From positions 1-49,989 of the forward strand of contig JABLXW010000032.1 of assembly GCA_013177945.1 (NCBI GenBank): a stretch of DNA of 49,989 bases, given 5' to 3'. This stretch comes from Bacillota bacterium (GTDB taxonomy: Bacteria; Bacillota; DSM-12270; Thermacetogeniales; Thermacetogeniaceae). Positions 36,967-47,670 of this stretch are shown one piece after another (the first letter of the stretch is position 1; each line of letters begins with the position of its first letter). The position numbers were made by a program, and so were the translations under genes. Below the pieces are notes generated by a model. It had not been told where the DNA came from, did no database searches, and saw nothing but the letters and a program-made list of their open reading frames with translations.

Positions 36967-38769
36967 TTAAACGTTGATATTTAATGATTTGATTTTATAA
37001 TACAGCGTACTGCGGGGTATGTTAAGCGCCCTGGCGGCACGGGATTTGTTGTACTGGTGCTGCTTTAAGACGCTAAGGATTGCTTCCCTCTCCTTCGCCG
37101 CAAGCATTTCTTCAAGACAGTAAACACCTTCTGGTCCGGAATCAGGCGGTCCGCTCTCTTTTTCCCCGCAGTCTTTAATCAGGTCTTCCCTAATTACATC
37201 TGAAAGATGTTCAATTTTGATGCACCCGTTTTCTGAAAGAAGAACAAGTCTTTCTGCAACGTTCCGGAGCTCCCGGTAGTTTCCCGGCCAGGAGTAATTT
37301 CGCAGAGCTGAAATTACGCCTTCTTCAATGCTGCTAATGGGAATATCATAGAATTTGCTGAACTGTTCGATAAACTCTTTAACCAGCCCCGGAAGCTCTT
37401 CACCTCTTTCGCGCAGGCTGGGCAGTTCCAGGGTAACGACGTTCAATCTGTAGAAGAGGTCCTCCCTGAAATTACCCTCTTTGACCATCTGCTCCAGATC
37501 CCGGTTGGTGGCGGCAATGAAACGGAGGTCAACCCGGACCGGTTTCACTCCCCCGACGCGGTAAAATTCCCTCTCCTGAATGACGCGCAGCAGTTTCGCC
37601 TGCATTTCGAGAGGAAGTTCACCGATTTCGTCGAGAAAAAGGGTTCCTCCGTCGGCAATTTCTAGCTTCCCCTTCTTGCCAGTCCTGGAAGCACCTGTAA
37701 AAGCGCCAGGCTCATATCCGAAAAGTTCGCTTTCGAAAAGGGTCTCGGGGATGGCACTGCAGTCCACTACGACAAACGGTTTATTTTTCCGGGGTCCTGC
37801 GAGGTGAAGCGACCTTGCCATCAATTCTTTCCCGGTTCCGGTCTCCCCTCGAATCAGGACGGTAGCGTCGACCCGCGCAGCTTTTTTAGCCAGAGCAATC
37901 AGCTTCTCAAAGCGCTTCCCTCTCCCCGAAAAAGCCTCAAAGCAAGGAGGTTCGGGAGCAACCTGATTCCCTCTCTTCTCCCCTTTACCCAGGCCCTGGA
38001 TCAGCTCCGCCTTTTCGTTCCTGCTCTCAACCTTGTTCATCAGGTTGACAACCTTGGTGACATCTTCTACTGTACAGACGGCCCCGATTACTTCCCCAAG
38101 CTTAATGATCGGGCTGATATTTTTTACCAGATGCCGGCCCTCCCTGACTTCGTATATATTTTTAATTGCTTTTCCTGTTGCAAGAACATTTTTGATCAGC
38201 TCCTGGCTGGCAATTTCGTTGGACCGTACTCCCGGTTTTATGCTGTTCTTGCACAGCCTCCTGGCACTGTTATTCCAGTAAATCAGGCGGCAGTATTTAT
38301 TGAAAACAAAGGCGGCTTCGGTGATGGAATCGAGCACTGCCTGGAGGTGTCCGCCCACTTCCTCCAGTTTATCGGAAAAGCCGTTGCAAATAGCAACAGC
38401 GGTAACGAGACCGATTAATCTGCCCGAATCACTGACCACCGGAACCCGGCCGATTTTGTGCTCCCTCATAATTTCCCGGACCTGATAAACATCGTCGTTC
38501 CCTTTAACCGCGATTACGGGCTGCTGCATCACTTCTCTTACAGGAGCCCGCAGATCCAGCCCCTCGTTGATCTTTCGCAGCAGAGCCTTGCGGGTGATAA
38601 TTCCGGTAACATGCTGATCCTGATCGAGAACAACCACTTCCTCCTTATCGCTGCAGATAAGCTGGTTGATTAACTGGCAGACCTGCGCCTCCGGCGGCGC
38701 GGTAAGGACTTCACTCTGCATAATCTCCTTGGCCTTTAAATTGGTCAGGTCGATCTGACACAAGTCCAT
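36967..38769 (-). CDS. sigma-54-dependent activator with CBS pair and PAS domain
   Basis: The protein has about 600 residues. Two CBS domains (about 12-130; IMQSEVLTAPPEAQV and VMQQPVIAVKGNDDV) are followed by a PAS-like domain (about 140-260; AVLDSITEAAFVFNKYCRLIYWNN). The AAA+ core has Walker A GETGTGKE, the sigma-54 contact loop GAFTGA, Walker B GGTLFLDEIGEL and RLNVVTLELPSLRER. A Fis-type helix-turn-helix (SRAARALNIPRSTLYYKIK) ends it. ATG 38769 is preferred over 38844. CBS domains usually sense adenosyl nucleotides. It is next to a CoA-transferase operon and a coaD-like gene that both have sigma-54 promoters, its likely targets. Confidence 0.92.
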   Translation of the reverse strand: MDLCQIDLTNLKAKEIMQSEVLTAPPEAQVCQLINQLICSDKEEVVVLDQDQHVTGIITRKALLRKINEGLDLRAPVREVMQQPVIAVKGNDDVYQVREIMREHKIGRVPVVSDSGRLIGLVTAVAICNGFSDKLEEVGGHLQAVLDSITEAAFVFNKYCRLIYWNNSARRLCKNSIKPGVRSNEIASQELIKNVLATGKAIKNIYEVREGRHLVKNISPIIKLGEVIGAVCTVEDVTKVVNLMNKVESRNEKAELIQGLGKGEKRGNQVAPEPPCFEAFSGRGKRFEKLIALAKKAARVDATVLIRGETGTGKELMARSLHLAGPRKNKPFVVVDCSAIPETLFESELFGYEPGAFTGASRTGKKGKLEIADGGTLFLDEIGELPLEMQAKLLRVIQEREFYRVGGVKPVRVDLRFIAATNRDLEQMVKEGNFREDLFYRLNVVTLELPSLRERGEELPGLVKEFIEQFSKFYDIPISSIEEGVISALRNYSWPGNYRELRNVAERLVLLSENGCIKIEHLSDVIREDLIKDCGEKESGPPDSGPEGVYCLEEMLAAKEREAILSVLKQHQYNKSRAARALNIPRSTLYYKIKSLNINV

Positions 38770-38919
38770 CCGGCCTTCCACCCCCCTAAACAGACGGTAC
38801 CACAGGGCCCCATATCTTTTGAATACAGATTTCGACAAAGGCAAAGAGAAACCCTTTTTTCGCCGGCCTCCATTAAAACTTAAAAAATCAGCAGAACGGC
38901 TCCGGAGACCAAAGTTAAG

Positions 38920-38967: not shown

Positions 38968-39690
38968 CTAGAACTCCGCAAGGTAGATCTTGTTGGGGTC
39001 CACCTTGGCAAGGGCAGCAAGCTCTGCATCGGTAGGCGGTGGGGTAACGGGCGCTTCTGTTTGGGTAATTTCCCAGCCGGTGTTCTTCCTGACCTCTTCC
39101 AGCGTTGTGTACGGGTGGACGCTTTCTACCTCCAGCTCCCCATTCCTCATGACAAAGGTGCAGAGAGGAGTGATCACCTTGTAGACGTTGCCCTTGGTGG
39201 TGCAGAAATCTACCTTCTCCACCAGAGAGCGGGGGTCGTGGGCGGTACGCCAGATCAGAACCTGCTTCACCGTGGGCGTAAGGGTTGCGCTTCCCGCCCC
39301 GCCGGGCAGACGCACCTTCGGCTTTTCGTACTCACCCCCGACGTAGGACATGTTAATTTCGCCTTTCCTGCTCAACTGGATAAAGCTCAGGAAAGCGTAG
39401 TCCAGTCTTCCGCTGCAGGCCAGGTCGAAAACCTCTTCCAGCGAGAAGTAGCTCACCACCCCTTTTAAAAGCCTTTCCTGGTCCAGCGTGGAAGGGGTGA
39501 TCGCCGGTTCGGGCTGGGGATCGATCCCTCCCGCGATGGTAATCCAGGTGCAGCTCGGTGCATGGAGGGCACGCGCCAGCTTCATGGCGGTTACCGGAAC
39601 GGGGGATGCCAGACCGGTAAAGTACTTTTTGCCATTTTGAACCTCCCGCGCCAGGGCCACAACCATCATTTCAGCGGGGCCATATTCCAT
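38968..39690 (-). CDS. CoA-transferase family I beta subunit, GctB/IpdB-like
   Basis: The 240-residue protein opens YGPAEMMVVALAREVQNG, has TGLASPVPVTAMKLARALHAP, SYVGGEYEKPKVRLPGGAGSA and VYKVITPLCTFVM, the layout of glutaconate CoA-transferase subunit B. Where GctB has its catalytic Glu (V-E-S-G), this protein reads I-A-G-G, so it lacks the residue that forms the glutamyl-CoA intermediate. The same loss is known in IpdAB, a ring-opening hydrolase of steroid degradation, so a hydrolase or lyase role is plausible. ATG 39690 has AGGAGG at 10 nt. Confidence 0.85.
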   Translation of the reverse strand: MEYGPAEMMVVALAREVQNGKKYFTGLASPVPVTAMKLARALHAPSCTWITIAGGIDPQPEPAITPSTLDQERLLKGVVSYFSLEEVFDLACSGRLDYAFLSFIQLSRKGEINMSYVGGEYEKPKVRLPGGAGSATLTPTVKQVLIWRTAHDPRSLVEKVDFCTTKGNVYKVITPLCTFVMRNGELEVESVHPYTTLEEVRKNTGWEITQTEAPVTPPPTDAELAALAKVDPNKIYLAEF

Positions 39691-39713: not shown

Positions 39714-40502
39714 CTAGAGCCATTCACTTACGGCATCGTTTTTCACGGCGCCCAGATAGGCCTTCATCCCGTCACGATCCGGCAGCGGGTAGTCGGGCCA
39801 GCAGGGACCGGGGGCCGCTCCCTTCGGTGCTTCGACCACCGCTTCCACGAAGATATAGGGAATTGTTGTCAGTTCGGGTTTCTCGCGGAACGTCTCCGTT
39901 GGGACAATCCTTTCCGCAGTAATAATCGTTCTTTTGGCGGCCCGGGTTAAGAGGACATCCTGGAAGGTGTTGCCGTAAATCCGGGCATTCCCCATTTCGT
40001 CTGCTTCGTGGACGTGCACCAGGGCCCAGTCGGGCTGGAGCGATTTGACACAAACCACTTCTTTTCCGTCAAAGGGGCTCTTCATCACCTGGTACATTTC
40101 GGGACGGATCTTCAGGAGGTCGCTCCCCCACATTCCGCCTACCGGCATGAACGGAACGCCGTATGCTCCCCCACGGAGAGCGTGAATGATCGCCGTTCAG
40201 GAGCCCTCCATTGCCTTGATCTTCCCGCTTTGAACCCCTTTCCGCATTCCGGGAGCCAGCCCAAACTCGTTTTCAAAACCGAAGAAACCAAACCAGATTT
40301 CCTTTACGCAGCCTGCTGCGCAAAGGATATCGGCGGCCAAACCAGGAGCAGCACCGACCACGGTTAACCCTTCGGGCCTGCGCCTGGCAAGGGCGCGGCA
40401 GAGGGCAACCGGGTTCCGGTGGAGGGCGTTTCCACCTACGGCCACAATCTGGTCGTTGCCGATAAGTTGAGCCGCCTGTTCGAGGGAAACCAACCTGGAC
40501 AT
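39714..40502 (-). CDS. CoA-transferase family I alpha subunit, GctA/IpdA-like, with in-frame TGA (candidate selenoprotein)
   Basis: Two abutting frames, 40502-40197 and 40148-39714, are in the same reading frame and are separated only by one TGA (40199-40197, codon 102). Read through, they give one 262-residue protein of normal family length: VAVGGNALHRNPVALCRALAR, FGFFGFENEFGLAPGMRKGVQ, AMEGS-TGA-TAIIHALRGGAYGVPFMPV and GSDLL, then DWALVHVHEADEMGNARIYG. No indel is needed. The TGA lies three codons after a Glu (codon 99) in a segment that in IpdA carries the catalytic Glu. A SECIS-like hairpin follows. The alternatives are a nonsense mutation or a sequence error. The neighbouring beta subunit is intact. 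Confidence 0.8.
40165..40181 (-). promoter_or_regulatory. candidate bacterial SECIS hairpin
   Basis: In the mRNA, GCUCUCC-GUG-GGGGAGC forms a 7-bp stem (one G-U) with a 3-nt loop whose first base is G. The loop begins 23 nt after the UGA. As I recall the bacterial SECIS model, it asks for a stem-loop with G in the first two loop positions about 16-37 nt after UGA; this fits. Confidence 0.5.
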
Positions 40503-40556: not shown

Positions 40557-41888
40557 TCAAAACTGTGGCTTTTCTTTAAATGTGGAGTAGAGCAGGAGCG
40601 CCAGGGCCATGCCTGCAATCAAGAAGGCAAAAGCCGCCTGGTAAGCTGCAGCCGGGTAAATTCCGTTGACTGCAGGGTAGCGCTGGATGATCAGTCCCAT
40701 CACCTGCTGGTGAACAGCACCGCCTACAAAGATGTACAGGTTGACAGCGCCGGTAGACGTTCCGGCCAGCTCCACCGGGAAACACTCCTTGGAATTGGCA
40801 AAGCAGACCACGAAGCTGCCTGCCGTGAGCCCCCAGTAGAAAAAGAGGGCCGCGATCATGGTTGGAGTTAAGGTAGCGATTTTCAAAACAATGGGAATGT
40901 ACGAGAGTGTATAGAGAATGCCGCCGTATAAAAGCACCTTCTTCCTGGATTTTAGCACCTTATCGGAAAGGATTCCCGACAGGGGGCAGCCGAAGACAAG
41001 CCCTACCGCCATCAACATCAGGTAGTTGGCAGCCTGAGTTGGTTCCATTCCGTACACGTGGCGGAGCCAGGGGCCCGCCCAAAGCCCCTGGAATCCCATC
41101 ATCCCGCCGTAGAAGAAGAACAGGAGAATCCCGATCTTGTTAAACTGCCAGTTGGAGAAGATCAGCTTCAGGCTTTCGCCAATGCCGATCTTCTTCCCCC
41201 CCTGGCCCGTCGGCGCGGCAATCCCCTCGATCTCCTGGATGCTGGGCCACCCCTTGTCCTGCGGTTTGTTCACCATGAAGAGGAAGAAGAGGATTACGGC
41301 AAGGAAGGTCACGGCACCGATCACGTAAAAAGAGCTGCGCCAGCCGATGGCCGCCATCATTAGGGCAAGGGGGCCTGCCGAAGAAAGAGACCCCATGTTC
41401 CCGATGGCCAGCAGGACGCCGGACATGGTCGCAAACTCCTGCTTCCGGAACCAGTCCGCCAGCAGCCGCATGGCAGGCACATAGACAAAGCCCACGCCCA
41501 GGCCAACCAGGAACCTCCCCACCACGGCAGTGGCAAAGTTTGGAGCGGCACCGAAGAGGATTGCTCCTGCAGCCGCAATCAGGAGAAAAAGGGAAACCGT
41601 CTTTTTAGGGCCCCAGTTATCGGCCAGAATCCCGGCCGGTAATTGACCTGCCGCGTAGGGGTAGAAGTACATCGAGCCCAAAAGGCCCAGGGCCGCCGGG
41701 GTCACCCCAAAAGCGTCCACAAGCGCCTTTGCAACAACCGCCGTCGAAGTCCTGTGGAAATATACAAGAAAGTAAGGAATTGCAATCAGGGCAAAGATAA
41801 AGTAGCGATAGGTCAGCACTTTTTGGACAAGTGCACTGTTTAACACAGAACCGTTCTTCTTTTCCACTTGAGGGGCGGATATCGCCAC
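40557..41888 (-). CDS. MFS transporter
   Basis: The 443-residue protein has about 12 hydrophobic helices. Landmarks are YFHRTSTAVVAKALVDAFG, AGQLPAGILADNWGPKKTV (loop 2-3 signature), RFLVGLGVGFVYVPAMRLLADWF and PLSGILSDKVLKSRKKV. GTG 41888, with AGGAGG at 7 nt, is the best start; the open frame reaches 41909. It probably imports the organic acid whose CoA ester is handled by the surrounding genes (inference). Confidence 0.88.
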   Translation of the reverse strand: MAISAPQVEKKNGSVLNSALVQKVLTYRYFIFALIAIPYFLVYFHRTSTAVVAKALVDAFGVTPAALGLLGSMYFYPYAAGQLPAGILADNWGPKKTVSLFLLIAAAGAILFGAAPNFATAVVGRFLVGLGVGFVYVPAMRLLADWFRKQEFATMSGVLLAIGNMGSLSSAGPLALMMAAIGWRSSFYVIGAVTFLAVILFFLFMVNKPQDKGWPSIQEIEGIAAPTGQGGKKIGIGESLKLIFSNWQFNKIGILLFFFYGGMMGFQGLWAGPWLRHVYGMEPTQAANYLMLMAVGLVFGCPLSGILSDKVLKSRKKVLLYGGILYTLSYIPIVLKIATLTPTMIAALFFYWGLTAGSFVVCFANSKECFPVELAGTSTGAVNLYIFVGGAVHQQVMGLIIQRYPAVNGIYPAAAYQAAFAFLIAGMALALLLYSTFKEKPQF

Positions 41889-42009
41889 CTTAAAACCTCC
41901 TCTCTTCATTCGTTCTTTTCCTGCCCTTAACTTCCATGTCCGCTAATAACCGCTTTCTGAAGACCGGCCGGTTCCAGCACCCCCTTCCTTCAGGCCTTGC
42001 GCAGAGGAC

Positions 42010-42885
42010 CTAAATTATTCCTTTTTCCTGCAGGGCAGGGAAGGGATCGACCAGCAGGCGCTTCAGGCCCAGCACCCGGGGAGCGAAACCCATCGCCAGT
42101 CCAAGCAGTTGCGTGACGTAGAGAACGGGCAGATGCAACTCCTCACCCAGCTCCCTTGCGACGGCTTCCTGGCGTGCATCCAGGTTCATCTGGCAGAGGG
42201 GGCAGGCAACGGCGATGACATCTGCCCCGGAGCGCTTTGCCGCCTGCAGGATCTCTCCCGCAAGCCTGAGCACCACCTGAGGCTCAGGCAGGACAAAACC
42301 GGCGCCACAGCATTCCGTTTTATAGGTCCAGGGTACGGGTTCCGCCCCCGCCGCAGCGAGAACTGCTTCCAGCAAGGTCGGGTCTTCAGGATCGGGCTGT
42401 CCCGTAACAGCAGCCGGCCTTACCAGGAAACATCCGTAGTAACAGGCAACCCGCAACCCGTTCAACGGCCTCACGATGCCGGCCTTCAGGCGGTCCCGCA
42501 GCTCGCGGAGGCAAAGGAGATCCAGGAGGCTGAGCACCTCCATTTCTTGCACTCCATCCAGGTCCGGCAACCGGGAAGCTATTTCTTGATAAAGCCGGGC
42601 CTCGGTTTGAAGTCGGTGGCGGGAGGTGAGAAGGCGGCTGTAGCAGGCAGCACAGGGAGCAAGCACCTTGCCGGAAACCATTTTTTTTGCCAGACTTAAA
42701 TTGCGCGCCGCAAGCAAAATGCTCAGTTTTTCGTCGATGCTGTGGGCAGAGGTTGCCCCGCAGCAGTTCCAATCAGGCACTTCCGTGAGTTCAATGCCCA
42801 GGTTCTGGAGGCAGAGTTTTAAACTGGCATCGTACTCCCGGGCGGCCGCGTGCAGCGAGCAGCCGGGGTAATATGCGATCTTCAT
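42010..42885 (-). CDS. HdrB-like heterodisulfide-reductase subunit (CCG domains), second copy
   Basis: The 291-residue protein has two complete CCG motifs. The first is YYPGCSLH, then NWNCCGATSAHS-like CCG, then CAAC; the second is CYYGCFLV, then TECCGAGF, then CPLCQMNLD. These bind the unusual [4Fe-4S] clusters where disulfide reduction happens in HdrB. The start ATG overlaps the hdrC stop (ATGA), showing translational coupling. The real disulfide or other two-electron acceptor is unknown in a bacterium. Confidence 0.9.
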   Translation of the reverse strand: MKIAYYPGCSLHAAAREYDASLKLCLQNLGIELTEVPDWNCCGATSAHSIDEKLSILLAARNLSLAKKMVSGKVLAPCAACYSRLLTSRHRLQTEARLYQEIASRLPDLDGVQEMEVLSLLDLLCLRELRDRLKAGIVRPLNGLRVACYYGCFLVRPAAVTGQPDPEDPTLLEAVLAAAGAEPVPWTYKTECCGAGFVLPEPQVVLRLAGEILQAAKRSGADVIAVACPLCQMNLDARQEAVARELGEELHLPVLYVTQLLGLAMGFAPRVLGLKRLLVDPFPALQEKGII

Positions 42886-43445
42886 TCCGGCAGCACCCCC
42901 CTTGGGCCCGCTTCCCTGAAAAAGGACCTGATCTCCTTCTGGCCGGAAATGCGCTCCGGAAAGAGCTTTATCTTGCCTTTCAGGAACATCTTTCTGCCCA
43001 GACCCAGGTCCCGGAAATAATCCTTTGTCCGAAAATTAAACTGGAGGGCCAGGAGGGCCTCCGGAGCCCTGCCGTACCTGGCAAGCTGGGCAAGGAAGAG
43101 TCTGTGGAAGAGGAGCACCCTTTCCCCGTTCACCGCGTATTTTTCCTTCAAGCACAACTCGCGGCAGGCATCCATGACCCGGGAAAGGCCGATCCCGCCG
43201 GGACAGCGTTCTTCACAGGTGTAGCACCCCAGGCAATACCAGATGCTCCTGCTCTCCAGTACCCTTTTTTTCTCGCCGCGCCTGATCAGGGCGATAAGTT
43301 CGCGGGGGCTGTAATCGTAAAAGGAAATGTTGGGGCAGCTTCCCGTACAGGTGCCGCAGCCCAGGCACCCGTCCAGGTTCTGGCCGCTTCTTGCTTCCAC
43401 TTCTCTCTGGAAATCGCCAGAAACAGCGGTTAATGAAGTCAGCAC
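42882..43445 (-). CDS. HdrC-like iron-sulfur subunit, second copy
   Basis: The 187-residue protein has two [4Fe-4S] motifs, CLGCGTCTGSCP (about 28) and CLGCYTCEERCP (about 70), and the HdrC helix region. GTG 43445 has GAGAGG at 6 nt. Coupled to HdrB by a 4-bp overlap. It passes electrons between HdrA and HdrB. Confidence 0.9.
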   Translation of the reverse strand: MLTSLTAVSGDFQREVEARSGQNLDGCLGCGTCTGSCPNISFYDYSPRELIALIRRGEKKRVLESRSIWYCLGCYTCEERCPGGIGLSRVMDACRELCLKEKYAVNGERVLLFHRLFLAQLARYGRAPEALLALQFNFRTKDYFRDLGLGRKMFLKGKIKLFPERISGQKEIRSFFREAGPRGVLPE

Positions 43446-44516
43446 TTAAATCCTCTCCCGCATTCTGAGATCGCAAACCGCCTGGAGGGCCGCAGCCTGG
43501 GCCTGGACCAGGGTTTCCGCCACACTTTTTGGAAACTCGCAGGCGCCGGCATGGTAGACACCTTCTCCTGCCTTCAGGGACCCGGCAGCGGCTGACGACC
43601 GGAGGAAGCCGTGGGGATCCCGTGCCAGTTGCAGGCTTTCCACAAGCCGGACCGTCTCCGGAAGGGGCTCCTGGGCCGCGGCAAGAACGACCAGATCTAC
43701 CTCCAGTTCCAGGGGAACACCCATCAGCGTATCCTCGGCGCGGATCAGCAGGCTGCCGTTTCCGGGAAACACCTTGGCCGGACGACCCCGCAGGTAGTGT
43801 ACCCGGTATCTTTCCATGGTTTCCCGCACAAACTCCTCATAGCCTTTTCCTGCAGCGCGTACATCCATATAGAAGACATAGCACTCTACATCAGGAAGAA
43901 GATCCTTAAGTTCCCGCGCCTGCTTCGCAGTATACATGCAGCAGATCTTCGAGCAGTAGGGCCGGCCCCGGACTCCCAGACCCGTCCTCATCCGCGAGCC
44001 CACGCACTGGAAAAATGCCACCTTTCGAGGGGGGGCTCCGGTTCCAGAGAGGCGGAACTCACCCGCAGCCCTGGCCTCCTTTAAGGCTCTTTCAAGGTCG
44101 AGACTGGTAAGAACACCCTGGTAACGCCCGTAGCCGTATTCGCTGCACTTTTCCGCCTGAAAATAGGCGGCACCGGTGGCCAGAATCAGCGCTTCCACCC
44201 TTTCCACGTAGCTCTTTCCGTCCCGCCCCAGGGTAACCACAAAGCCGCCCCCTGCCCTCTGGACGTCTTCCAGAGATGTATTGAGCCAGACGTCAACGCC
44301 GGGAGACCCGGCAATCTTTTCCCTTAAAGCACCCAGCAGGGCGGCGGCATCTTCCATATCGGGGTACAGCCGTCCCAGCTGGAGCAGCCGCCCCCCCAAC
44401 TCCCTTTCCCTTTCCACCAGCAAAACCGGATGGCCGCACCGCGAGACCCAGGCCGCCGCTTCCATTCCCGCGGCCCCCCCGCCGAGCACCAGAACCTTCT
44501 CCTTTTCCCCTGTCAC
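43446..44516 (-). CDS. HdrA-like FAD-binding subunit (short)
   Basis: The 356-residue protein starts VLVLGGGAAGMEAAAWVSRCGHPVLLVE (FAD Rossmann motif) and has LILATGAAYFQAE and the HdrA stretch FFQCVGSRMR...YCSKICCMYTAKQA, ending with HAGACEFPKSVAETLVQAQ. Archaeal HdrA is nearly twice as long: this form lacks the N-terminal domain and the extra ferredoxin clusters. GTG 44516 has GGGAG at 8 nt. It is placed centrally between two HdrBC pairs, which suggests it feeds both. Confidence 0.9.
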   Translation of the reverse strand: MTGEKEKVLVLGGGAAGMEAAAWVSRCGHPVLLVERERELGGRLLQLGRLYPDMEDAAALLGALREKIAGSPGVDVWLNTSLEDVQRAGGGFVVTLGRDGKSYVERVEALILATGAAYFQAEKCSEYGYGRYQGVLTSLDLERALKEARAAGEFRLSGTGAPPRKVAFFQCVGSRMRTGLGVRGRPYCSKICCMYTAKQARELKDLLPDVECYVFYMDVRAAGKGYEEFVRETMERYRVHYLRGRPAKVFPGNGSLLIRAEDTLMGVPLELEVDLVVLAAAQEPLPETVRLVESLQLARDPHGFLRSSAAAGSLKAGEGVYHAGACEFPKSVAETLVQAQAAALQAVCDLRMRERI

Positions 44517-44517
44517 G

Positions 44518-45447
44518 CTACTTTCTCCCTTCTTTCCGGATCACCACAGGAACCGTGTTCATCTCGAAGCCGAGCAGCTCCTCGGGAACGCCCAGCGTCC
44601 AGGCGATCAACTGCGAGAGATCGATGACCGGAAGGGCAAAATCCCCCATACCCCGCTCCTTCATCACCGCCTGGGAACGGTCAAGCTGAACGTTGCAGCC
44701 CGGGCAGACGGTGAGCAGCAGTTCAGCCCCTTCTTCCCGCGCCGACCGGATTTTACGGTAAGACTGGGCAAGGGCAAGCTCGTCGTGGGTAAACATTACT
44801 CCCACCGCCGCTCCACAACACTCCCTCCTGGCCTGGTAGAAAACAGGTTGACCGCCCAGCATTTCCACGATCTCTTCGATGAAAGTGGGATATTCGGGAT
44901 CATCGATCACACCGTACTTCTTGGCCAGGTAGTGACAACCGTAATGAACGCCGACGGGCAACCCCGCGAGGGAAAAGACCTGTTTCGCCCGGATCCGGTC
45001 GCGCAGCCGGTACCAGAGTTCTTGAAAGTGGTAAATTTTTGCCGTCCCCTTGTAGCAGCGGTTAATTAAACCCAGCACCTGGTCTACTTTCTGTCTGGCA
45101 TTCCGGTCGTGGTCCAGGATGTGCTTGAACTCCGTCATCCAGCCGTAACAGCCGTTGCAGTTTGTAAAGAGATCGAGCCCTTCCCCTTCGGCAATGCTCA
45201 GGTTTCTCGCCGCAGCCGCCAGGGAGGTTAAAGGCTCAAAGCCCTGGCAGGTCATCAGGTACCCCGTACAGCAGGTTTGCTCCCTGGATTCCACCAGTTC
45301 TATCCCGAGGATTTTTGTGATCTCCCTGATGGACTTCTCAAGGCCCGGATACTCCATGCTTCCGGTGCAACTGCGGAAGAAAAAGACCCTTTCAGAAAGC
45401 GGAATCTCTTCAACCTGCCTGTGGTTAATAAGGCCCCGTCCGGTCAT
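44518..45447 (-). CDS. HdrB-like heterodisulfide-reductase subunit, first copy
   Basis: The 309-residue protein has CCG motif 1 (RSCTGS, TCCTGYL, CNGC) and motif 2 (HYGCHYL, ECCGAAVG, CPGCNVQLD). It is diverged from the copy at 42010, most clearly in the first motif, CTG in place of the usual GC at its start and CCTG in place of CCG. It overlaps the hdrC stop by ATGA. Confidence 0.88.
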   Translation of the reverse strand: MTGRGLINHRQVEEIPLSERVFFFRSCTGSMEYPGLEKSIREITKILGIELVESREQTCCTGYLMTCQGFEPLTSLAAAARNLSIAEGEGLDLFTNCNGCYGWMTEFKHILDHDRNARQKVDQVLGLINRCYKGTAKIYHFQELWYRLRDRIRAKQVFSLAGLPVGVHYGCHYLAKKYGVIDDPEYPTFIEEIVEMLGGQPVFYQARRECCGAAVGVMFTHDELALAQSYRKIRSAREEGAELLLTVCPGCNVQLDRSQAVMKERGMGDFALPVIDLSQLIAWTLGVPEELLGFEMNTVPVVIRKEGRK

Positions 45448-46031
45448 CCGGCAGTTCTTCCCTTCGCATAGGCAAGTTCAAGGGGGCGATCTTCCCTGGC
45501 ATCCAGGCCGGAGATCCATTCCTTCGCTCCGGTGGCCTCAAAGATCACCCGCAGTTCCTCGAGAGCCTTTTCCTCCAGGACGAGGGGCGGGAGGTCGAGC
45601 TTTTCCCTGCCCTCCCTGATCCGCTCCATCCTTTTTTCTCCCGGTACAAAGCTCAATCCATACTGGTAAAGTCTCTCTGCAAAACGTTTGAAACCCGCCG
45701 CATACCTGGCTCCGTAACCCCTTGCCAGAGCCTGAAAGCGCAGGGCGAGAATGAGCATCGCAGGATCCACATCATGGGGGCAGGAAACATAGCATGTCTT
45801 GCACCAGAAGCACTGCCAGATTTCCTCGCCGGAAAGAAGCCGGGCCGCGTTTCCGAAAAGAACGTCGCGGATAATCCGGCGTGAATTGTACGTTTCTGTA
45901 AGGGCGGCCGCAGGACAGCCTCCCACACACTTGCCACAGGCCATGCATTTTTCCAAATCCTTGACGAGCCCGGTCGCTTCCAGTTTTTCATAAAAATCTG
46001 AAATCCACTCTTGACCCCGTTCCTTCTGCAC
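45444..46031 (-). CDS. HdrC-like iron-sulfur subunit, first copy
   Basis: The 195-residue protein has CMACGKCVGGCP (about 29) and CFWCKTCYVSCP (about 71). GTG 46031 with AAGGAG is the start. It is the first of the five Hdr genes and follows the CoA-transferase pair by about 75 bp in the same operon. Confidence 0.88.
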   Translation of the reverse strand: MQKERGQEWISDFYEKLEATGLVKDLEKCMACGKCVGGCPAAALTETYNSRRIIRDVLFGNAARLLSGEEIWQCFWCKTCYVSCPHDVDPAMLILALRFQALARGYGARYAAGFKRFAERLYQYGLSFVPGEKRMERIREGREKLDLPPLVLEEKALEELRVIFEATGAKEWISGLDAREDRPLELAYAKGRTAG

Positions 46032-46105: not shown

Positions 46106-46771
46106 TTAAACCTGGTACTCTTTCAAGTCCGCGGCAACGGTAAAACTGGCTTCGGTGATGGCACGGATATCGTCGACGGTGAGACCGGGCCAGATTTCTT
46201 TGAGCACGTAACCTTTGTCGGTCAGCTCAAAGACCGCCTTTTCGGTAATCACCATGTGGGCGCACCTGGGCGCAGTAATGGGGTACTTGCACTTCTTAAC
46301 AAGCTTGGGGGCGCCTTTTGCGGTATGGGTCATGGCAATGATGACCTTTTTTGCCATGAACATCAGGTCCATACCCCCGCCCATTCCCGGCTGGTACTTG
46401 TTGGCCCCGGGATAAATGGGGAGCGCCCAGTTGGCCGCATTCCCCTCTTCATCCACCTCCAGACAGCCGAGGATGGTGACATCCACGTGCCCGCCCCGGA
46501 TTAACTGGAAGGAATAGCTCAGGTCGAAAATGGACATACCGGGCAGCCTGGTAATGGGGCCGGCACCGGCATTGGCCAATCCGCAGTCGGCTTCCTCGTA
46601 GGTGGGAGTTCCTCCAAACCCCAAACCCCCGTTTTCGGTTTGAAGCCAGACGTGGACGCCCTCGGGAATAAAATCAGCGACACCCAGCGGCATTCCAAAG
46701 CCGAGATTCACAACCATTCCGTCGCGCAATTCCTTCGCGGCACGGCGGCAAATAATTTCACGCTCATCCAT
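46106..46771 (-). CDS. acetoacetate/3-oxoacid-type CoA-transferase beta subunit
   Basis: The 221-residue protein has VVNLGFGMPLGVADFIPEG and TENGGLGFGG. The Glu of TENG is the catalytic residue that forms the thioester with CoA in AtoA/ScoB. GGAMD-like GGGMDLMFMAKKVIIAMTH follows, as in the family. ATG 46771 with GAAGGAGG. Unlike the pair at 38968-40502 this subunit keeps its catalytic Glu, so it should be a true CoA-transferase. Confidence 0.9.
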   Translation of the reverse strand: MDEREIICRRAAKELRDGMVVNLGFGMPLGVADFIPEGVHVWLQTENGGLGFGGTPTYEEADCGLANAGAGPITRLPGMSIFDLSYSFQLIRGGHVDVTILGCLEVDEEGNAANWALPIYPGANKYQPGMGGGMDLMFMAKKVIIAMTHTAKGAPKLVKKCKYPITAPRCAHMVITEKAVFELTDKGYVLKEIWPGLTVDDIRAITEASFTVAADLKEYQV

Positions 46772-46819: not shown

Positions 46820-47539
46820 TCAGCCTGCTGCCCGGAGCCGCTTTCTTTCCTTCCAAAGGTCACGGTAGATCCGCTGTTCTTCCTCAAAGGTATAGCCCTG
46901 GACAAGGACATCAACCAGCGGGGCAACGATGTGGATCAGGTCGGGGTCGATTTCATCTACGAATTCATTAACTTCACAGACCACATAATCTGCCGCAAAG
47001 GCCATAATCGGATTTGTATTCCTCTGAAGATAGCGGCACCTGACATTTCCGAACCGGTCGGCCTGGTACCCCTTCAGGAAAGCAATGTCGGCCCTTAATG
47101 GCTTCTCGATCAGGTAATCCTTCCCGTCGATGGTCACCTTCTGCTTTCCTTCTTCCACCAGTGTTCCTATTCCCACCGGCGTGAGGACACCACCCAGGCC
47201 GCTTCCCCCCGCCCGGATCTTCTCAATCCAGGTTCCCATGGGGTAGAATTCGACTTCCAGCTTTCCTTCTTTATAAGCATTGAGGTGCTCAGGGGCAACG
47301 CCGACGTGGCTCGTGATGTATTTCTTGATCTTTCCCTGGGCGAAAAGGTACGCCGTACCAAAGCCGCCTCCGACCATGGACCCGCAGGTGTTGATCAGGG
47401 TCAGATCCTTGACATCGATCTCGCGGAGTTTTTCCACGATCTTGAGGGGAATTCCCACGTCCAGAAAACCACCGATCATGATCGTCATTCCATCTCGAAG
47501 CCGTGCTACCGCTTCCTCCAGCGTGCCAACCTTACCCAT
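46820..47539 (-). CDS. acetoacetate/3-oxoacid-type CoA-transferase alpha subunit
   Basis: The 239-residue AtoD/ScoA-like protein has TIMIGGFLDVGIPLKIVEKL, the GGSGLGGVLTPVGIGTLVEEGK oxyanion region, and YLIEKPLRADIAFLKGYQADRFGN. ATG 47539 is chosen over the two upstream starts for its spacing from AGGTGG. It is the first gene of the long operon and moves CoA onto the incoming acid from acetyl- or succinyl-CoA (inference). Confidence 0.9.
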   Translation of the reverse strand: MGKVGTLEEAVARLRDGMTIMIGGFLDVGIPLKIVEKLREIDVKDLTLINTCGSMVGGGFGTAYLFAQGKIKKYITSHVGVAPEHLNAYKEGKLEVEFYPMGTWIEKIRAGGSGLGGVLTPVGIGTLVEEGKQKVTIDGKDYLIEKPLRADIAFLKGYQADRFGNVRCRYLQRNTNPIMAFAADYVVCEVNEFVDEIDPDLIHIVAPLVDVLVQGYTFEEEQRIYRDLWKERKRLRAAG

Positions 47540-47670
47540 CCACATACCCACCTTTCTAAAGAAAATTGAGAAAAAACCTTATGGATAAAACCGGCCGACC
47601 TCCCTTTGGACATCCCTCCCATTTAAGCGATTTTTGATCAAAACTTCACATTTTCCGCCGGATCTGAATT

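Follow-up and report, generated by a model that had tools for sequence, protein, structure and literature searches.

IpdAB is the COCHEA-CoA hydrolase of steroid ring cleavage. Glu105 of its alpha subunit is reportedly catalytic, a role that rests here on the title of PDB entry 6COJ (IpdAB E105A COCHEA-CoA complex) and on what a 2018 paper in PNAS is reported to show. The reaction itself is a retro-Claisen cleavage of a CoA ester (PMC6678751), and the IpdB subunit has a glycine, Gly57, at the column where transferases of this fold carry a glutamate (PMC5380842). In the related AibAB, decarboxylation proceeds through the enolate of the CoA ester, and the cysteine that replaces the transferase Glu in the beta subunit, AibB Cys56, is dispensable (PMC7756340).

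How does the locus described here compare with these enzymes? The window, by which we mean the entire stretch of 49,989 nucleotides analysed (contig JABLXW010000032.1 of assembly GCA_013177945.1; Bacillota, Thermacetogeniaceae), encodes an alpha/beta pair of the same superfamily (Table 1). Along the alpha frame (40502-39714, minus strand), the sole stop before the terminal TAG (39714-39716) is a TGA at codon 102 (bases 40199-40197). Read-through of this codon yields 262 residues, with a Pfam CoA_trans match over residues 7-225; none of the NCBIfam models matched the subunit above its cut-off. An earlier interpretation made from the letters alone (hereafter the sequence-only reading) had held that nothing but this TGA breaks the frame and that read-through gives a subunit of full family length, and both statements stand. 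We interpret the apparently broken gene as encoding a selenoprotein, namely the alpha chain of a heteromeric enzyme from the GctAB/IpdAB/AibAB superfamily, which has the class I CoA-transferase fold. In this interpretation, UGA-102 is decoded as selenocysteine (Sec) via a downstream hairpin, and Sec replaces the catalytic Glu of IpdA; for this explanation as a whole we estimate a probability of about 0.9. That the alpha subunit is an active-site selenoprotein is very likely, in the absence of protein-level proof of Sec.

Table 1. Coordinates of the Sec-alpha/beta pair, its recoding elements and the surrounding genes in the window.
Feature	Position	Strand	Basis or remark
CBS/sigma-54 activator resembling PrdR, possible regulator	36967..38844	minus	PrdR model 565 bits, below cut-off 795
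Partner beta subunit (AibB/GctB-like), Ile at catalytic-Glu column	38968..39690	minus	CoA_trans; AibB best in PDB
Predicted selenoprotein alpha subunit gene (GctA/IpdA-like, 262 aa, Sec at 102)	39714..40502	minus	single frame, broken by TGA only
SECIS-like hairpin GCUCUCC-GUG-GGGGAGC	40165..40181	minus	covariation, synonymous-site conservation, presence in Sec genes
TGA codon 102, predicted selenocysteine	40197..40199	minus	TGA/Cys column in homologues; IpdA Glu105 alignment
MFS transporter (organic-anion type), conserved neighbour	40557..41909	minus	
HdrB-like protein 2 (CCG domains), conserved neighbour	42010..42885	minus	
HdrC-like Fe-S protein 2	42882..43445	minus	
HdrA-like FAD protein	43446..44516	minus	partial match to HdrA models
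HdrB-like protein 1 (CCG domains)	44518..45447	minus	
HdrC-like Fe-S protein 1	45444..46031	minus	
Conventional 3-oxoacid CoA-transferase subunit B, motif QTENGG	46106..46771	minus	TIGR02428 251.1 bits, cut-off 243.55
Conventional 3-oxoacid CoA-transferase subunit A	46820..47551	minus	TIGR02429 175.9 bits, cut-off 128.5

The residue at codon 102 and its homologues

In phmmer and profile alignments alike, U102 aligns exactly with IpdA Glu105, a position held by Glu in the 6CO6 entry and by Ala in 6COJ. The sequence-only reading had placed the TGA near the catalytic Glu of IpdA; the segment was right, and the position can now be refined from mere proximity to the very same column. An AlphaFold model of alpha as a single chain (mean pLDDT 93.2), matched best in the PDB by GctA, IpdA and AibA, has residue 102 at the start of a helix (102-114). 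A catalytic role for Sec102 is supported by inference alone, from the exact match to Glu105.

The beta gene comes directly after alpha, with an ATG at 39690 as its start inside a longer ORF that begins at 39723, and its product has the CoA_trans fold with AibB as the best PDB match (E 1.7e-30). As had been noticed before, this subunit lacks the usual catalytic Glu: the column holds Ile in the window, and Glu never occurs there in the aligned partners of Sec and Cys alpha subunits, whereas conventional CoA-transferases encoded in these gene clusters retain TEGG in their beta subunits. Because beta is devoid of this Glu and Sec occupies the Glu105 column of alpha, the pair has neither the feature that defines CoA-transferases nor the Glu that marks IpdAB.

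Do relatives carry Sec (TGA) or Cys at this column, as the sequence-only reading would have it? TGA is found there in 26 distinct homologous genes with identities down to 36-41%, of which 15 are close homologues (15 of 15) and 11 are divergent. Cys is found in five: locus L003, three further genomes and the cultured Acetoanaerobium noterae. In L003 (Peptococcaceae BICA1-7), the Cys codon is TGT, in the motif EGSCISII. All other relatives carry Asn, Glu or Gly instead. The GTDB contig scan, which reaches close relatives only, returned seven loci of 57–64% identity (six with TGA, one with Cys); our Sec counts refer to the phylum of the window, with other phyla outside the scope. Among related genomes, a same-genus homologue (89%) and others at 62% and 53% all have TGA, as do many more across the phylum. 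A deeply divergent second group, marked by the motif [DE]H[TV]U[PV], has TGA in ten genomes, and another genome has it in the motif EHTUPT. By maximum likelihood, the Sec sequences fall into two main groups on the tree, with the Cys sequence of L003 nested inside one of them. No Cys was found near Sec102 that would make a redox motif of the UxxC/CxxU kind.

The carrier genomes are mostly metagenome assemblies, and no relative was found on the viral contigs scanned. Within the class to which the window genome belongs, the Sec version is present in 2 of 20 genomes, from its own genus only; lateral transfer is likely, judged from this distribution alone.

Gene neighbourhood and possible reaction

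What might such an enzyme do? The pair is embedded in a cluster ordered as 3-oxoacid CoA-transferase, HdrC, HdrB, HdrA-like protein, HdrC, HdrB, MFS transporter, Sec-alpha, beta and PrdR-like activator. Genes of disulfide-reductase type stand beside the pair at all 14 loci examined of the window lineage, in the form of an Hdr module (or part of one, at a contig edge) at 11 and of a CoA-disulfide-reductase-like gene at three. These loci are related, and such counts do not represent independent events. Neither the ten loci examined in the divergent Sec lineages nor four of the five Cys homologues have a disulfide-reductase neighbour, and the 19 loci of Asn, Glu or Gly homologues yielded at most one, a weak FAD match. 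Homologues of the PrdR-like activator are located beside the pair at four loci; PrdR regulates proline reductase, which is a Sec enzyme.

The Cys pair of A. noterae lies directly behind a CoA-disulfide reductase gene (611.8 bits, cut-off 458), in a cluster (L143:949-15711, NZ_CP154629.1) that further comprises microcompartment-shell-like ORFs, a class II aldolase, an acylating aldehyde dehydrogenase, PduL, MtnK, MtnA and a sugar-type ABC transporter. We identified the shell proteins by visual inspection, without a family scan. Possibly, this cluster constitutes a microcompartment route for methylthioribose, and given that the Cys pair is found in such a setting and immediately behind a CoA-disulfide reductase, methylthioacetyl-CoA would, on a reductive reading of the chemistry, fit as its substrate. 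The 2.6 Mb record NZ_CP154629.1 is labelled as a plasmid.

Several other features were encountered around these genes. The Cys pair of L003 is followed by a gene for a short YedF-type selenium-metabolism protein (L003:7565-7945; TIGR03527, 118.5 bits, cut-off 110). Near the divergent Sec pairs at four loci lies a conserved gene set for an adenine-deaminase-like amidohydrolase, a HAD protein (at three of the four), an NAD(P)H-dependent FMN-reductase-like protein and a PAS-type protein. In the corresponding cluster of Syntrophomonadaceae AS10tlH2TH_358, the alpha gene of the conventional CoA-transferase has an in-frame TAG near its C-terminus (L004:1407), in a region that homologues read through.

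As IpdAB and AibAB act on CoA esters, the latter via an enolate, and the neighbouring genes are of disulfide-reductase types, a serious candidate for the reaction is that an acyl-CoA loses a group reductively, with an enolate as the leaving group. Comparative genomics indicates that SelB and tRNA-Sec decode UGA-102 as Sec, directed by the downstream hairpin. The further steps are inferred: the selenolate may sit at the N-terminus of the helix, facing the alpha-beta active site, and serve as catalytic nucleophile on the CoA-ester substrate; selenium would take a thiol or another leaving group, with release of an acyl-CoA enolate; and the neighbouring module of Hdr or CoA-disulfide reductase type would restore the selenolate. 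Reaction and substrate are not established, and that turnover in the window lineage is reductive remains a tentative inference, to which we give somewhat less than even odds. The stronger claim of new chemistry, namely that a C-S (or C-X) bond of an acyl-CoA is cleaved reductively while an enolate leaves and a partner re-reduces selenium, appears rather unlikely at present. Moreover, with the divergent Sec loci and four of the five Cys loci devoid of disulfide-reductase neighbours, reductive turnover may not cover all members.

Alternatively, Sec102 might not undergo redox chemistry at all, and instead act as a nucleophile or general base as Glu105 does in IpdA, be it in hydrolysis, retro-Claisen cleavage or CoA transfer, with the Hdr genes serving another step of the pathway. 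Sec and Cys are redox residues in most known selenoproteins, and the disulfide-reductase-type module at 14 of 14 window-lineage loci, together with the one Cys homologue directly behind a CoA-disulfide reductase gene, argues against a non-redox role. Such a role is in turn favoured by the exact correspondence to the IpdA Glu105 column, by a beta subunit that lacks the GctB Glu just as IpdB does (PMC5380842), by the divergent Sec lineages without a disulfide-reductase neighbour, and by a thiolase-like gene in two of the clusters. We regard a non-redox function as a possibility to be taken seriously without being probable, and a hydrolase or transferase role as about as likely as reductive removal.

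Decoding of the UGA

A hairpin alone is weak evidence, and the identity of Sec is therefore decided by comparative evidence rather than by the fold of a single gene. The sequence-only reading had recognised a hairpin after the UGA; it is indeed present (40181-40165) and covaries across homologues. In the window gene, 22 nt separate the UGA from the hairpin loop, and the loop lies 21–23 nt past the UGA in all 25 Sec genes examined, with no such hairpin in any of the non-Sec homologues tested. When defined as a stem of at least 6 bp, with a loop of 3–8 nt that has G in its first two bases, 16–37 nt from the UGA, a bacterial SECIS-like model fits 18/18 Sec genes as compared to 0/15 non-Sec homologues, and further cases agree. 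For the close group (15 Sec genes), 88.6% of the cells in stem columns 19-25/29-35 after the UGA are paired, two pairs have changed on both sides, and the covariation score is 0.208 versus 0.078 in shuffled data. The ten genes examined from the divergent group share a stem with the loop GGC, 23 nt past the UGA: here, 98.6% of cells are paired (slid registers reach 44% at most), four of seven pairs have changed on both sides, and the score is 0.435 (shuffled, 0.181). Compensatory base changes are thus seen in two separate lineages. Synonymous sites of the stem are conserved as well: at invariant residues of the close group, codon identity amounts to 0.66 in the stem and to 0.30 at the four- and sixfold sites elsewhere. 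The Arg codon of the loop is CGT in 15 of 15 close Sec genes.

Synonymous recoding gives a comparable hairpin in 8–23% of trials per gene. Compared with synonymous recodings, the 42 nt that follow the UGA have an ordinary folding energy (z -0.7, window gene), and we dropped energy as evidence for the hairpin, relying on position, covariation and codon conservation instead. A search of Rfam returned no SECIS match and no matching family, all hits being chance ones that did not reach the gathering score.

The four genes on which the sequence-only reading had let its proposal hinge, selA, selB, selC and selD, are all present in the window genome. The selA gene (584.1 bits, cut-off 267.9) adjoins selB (388.6 bits, cut-off 242.25), and selD has an in-frame UGA of its own. 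Two clearly different tRNA-Sec genes (L048:12161-12257, C11; L052:1067-1163, C35) were identified, one ~5.5 kb downstream of selB and the second on another contig, both with the anticodon TCA according to ARAGORN and above the Rfam cut-off. Of the carrier genomes, 11 were tested: each has tRNA-Sec and selD above cut-off, and ten have selB above it; in G104, selB gave split, sub-cut-off matches only.

Could the UGA be accounted for otherwise? Translation might stop there and restart at ATG 40148, in frame and ~50 nt further on, so that two polypeptides form one subunit. The 16 residues in between (TAIIxALRxGAYGxPF) are, however, conserved in all homologues, the unbroken Cys versions included, the codon is always UGA and never TAA or TAG, and the hairpin covaries, which leaves a split gene highly improbable. 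Nor do we give much credit to a reading of UGA as some other amino acid, through a changed code or a suppressor tRNA: the frame would be open if TGA were a sense codon, but TGA is the normal terminator of 8 of the 34 window genes, which argues for the standard code, the genome has the full Sec machinery including two tRNA-Sec genes, and homologues carry Cys at the column. A pseudogene, in which a single in-frame stop is often seen, or a sequencing error is the least credible of all, since the same TGA recurs at the same codon of 26 distinct genes and the two halves of alpha are equally conserved (identity to the same-genus genome 0.91 upstream and 0.88 downstream of the UGA). The conserved TGA, the covarying hairpin, the use of TGA as a stop elsewhere and the Sec machinery led us to reject all three.

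Comparison with known systems

The window enzyme resembles IpdAB (6CO6, 6CO9, 6COJ, 6CON) in several respects: the fold (TM-score 0.92), the alpha/beta arrangement and the column of the alpha catalytic residue are the same, and beta lacks the transferase Glu in both (PMC5380842). In contrast to IpdA, with its Glu105, the window alpha has Sec, identity is only 27–28%, steroid genes are not found near the pair, and the window beta is nearer to AibB than to IpdB. GctAB (glutaconate CoA-transferase, 1POI) shares the fold and subunit layout, and is the best sequence match of alpha (E 6e-27), but Glu54 of GctB is replaced by Ile in the window beta, and GctA has Gln at the Sec column of the alignment. 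The GctAB-type Glu is kept by the separate, conventional CoA-transferase of the window cluster. AibA/AibB (3-methylglutaconyl-CoA decarboxylase, 5MZW) contributes the closest relative of the window beta, and likewise has a sulfur-containing active-site residue in place of Glu. There, however, the Cys is in beta, whereas here the chalcogen residue is in alpha, as Sec or Cys throughout the Sec/Cys group, and the AibB Cys56 column is Ile in the window.

A 2026 review counts 119 prokaryotic selenoprotein families or subfamilies, none with PF01144 (PMC13188914), and the nine new families from deep-Sep (2025) do not include the CoA-transferase fold. Our full-text literature search, with subscription papers outside its scope, found no selenoprotein of this fold either, in keeping with the sequence-only reading, which knew of none in the family. 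If true, our interpretation adds a selenoprotein family to a fold without any in the 2026 inventory, and suggests a hitherto unknown chemistry on CoA esters among anaerobes that live by syntrophy or fermentation. Genes of this kind are probably annotated as two fragments or as pseudogenes. With known prokaryotic selenoproteins, the window gene has in common the UGA, the SECIS-like hairpin, the Sec machinery and the pairing of Sec and Cys homologues; the nearest of them by substrate, CoA-disulfide reductase, has an unrelated fold (PMC13188914). Here, Sec would replace a catalytic acid and not a redox Cys of the thioredoxin type, and since a single active site exists in forms with Sec, Cys, Glu and Asn, the reason for selenium is directly testable.
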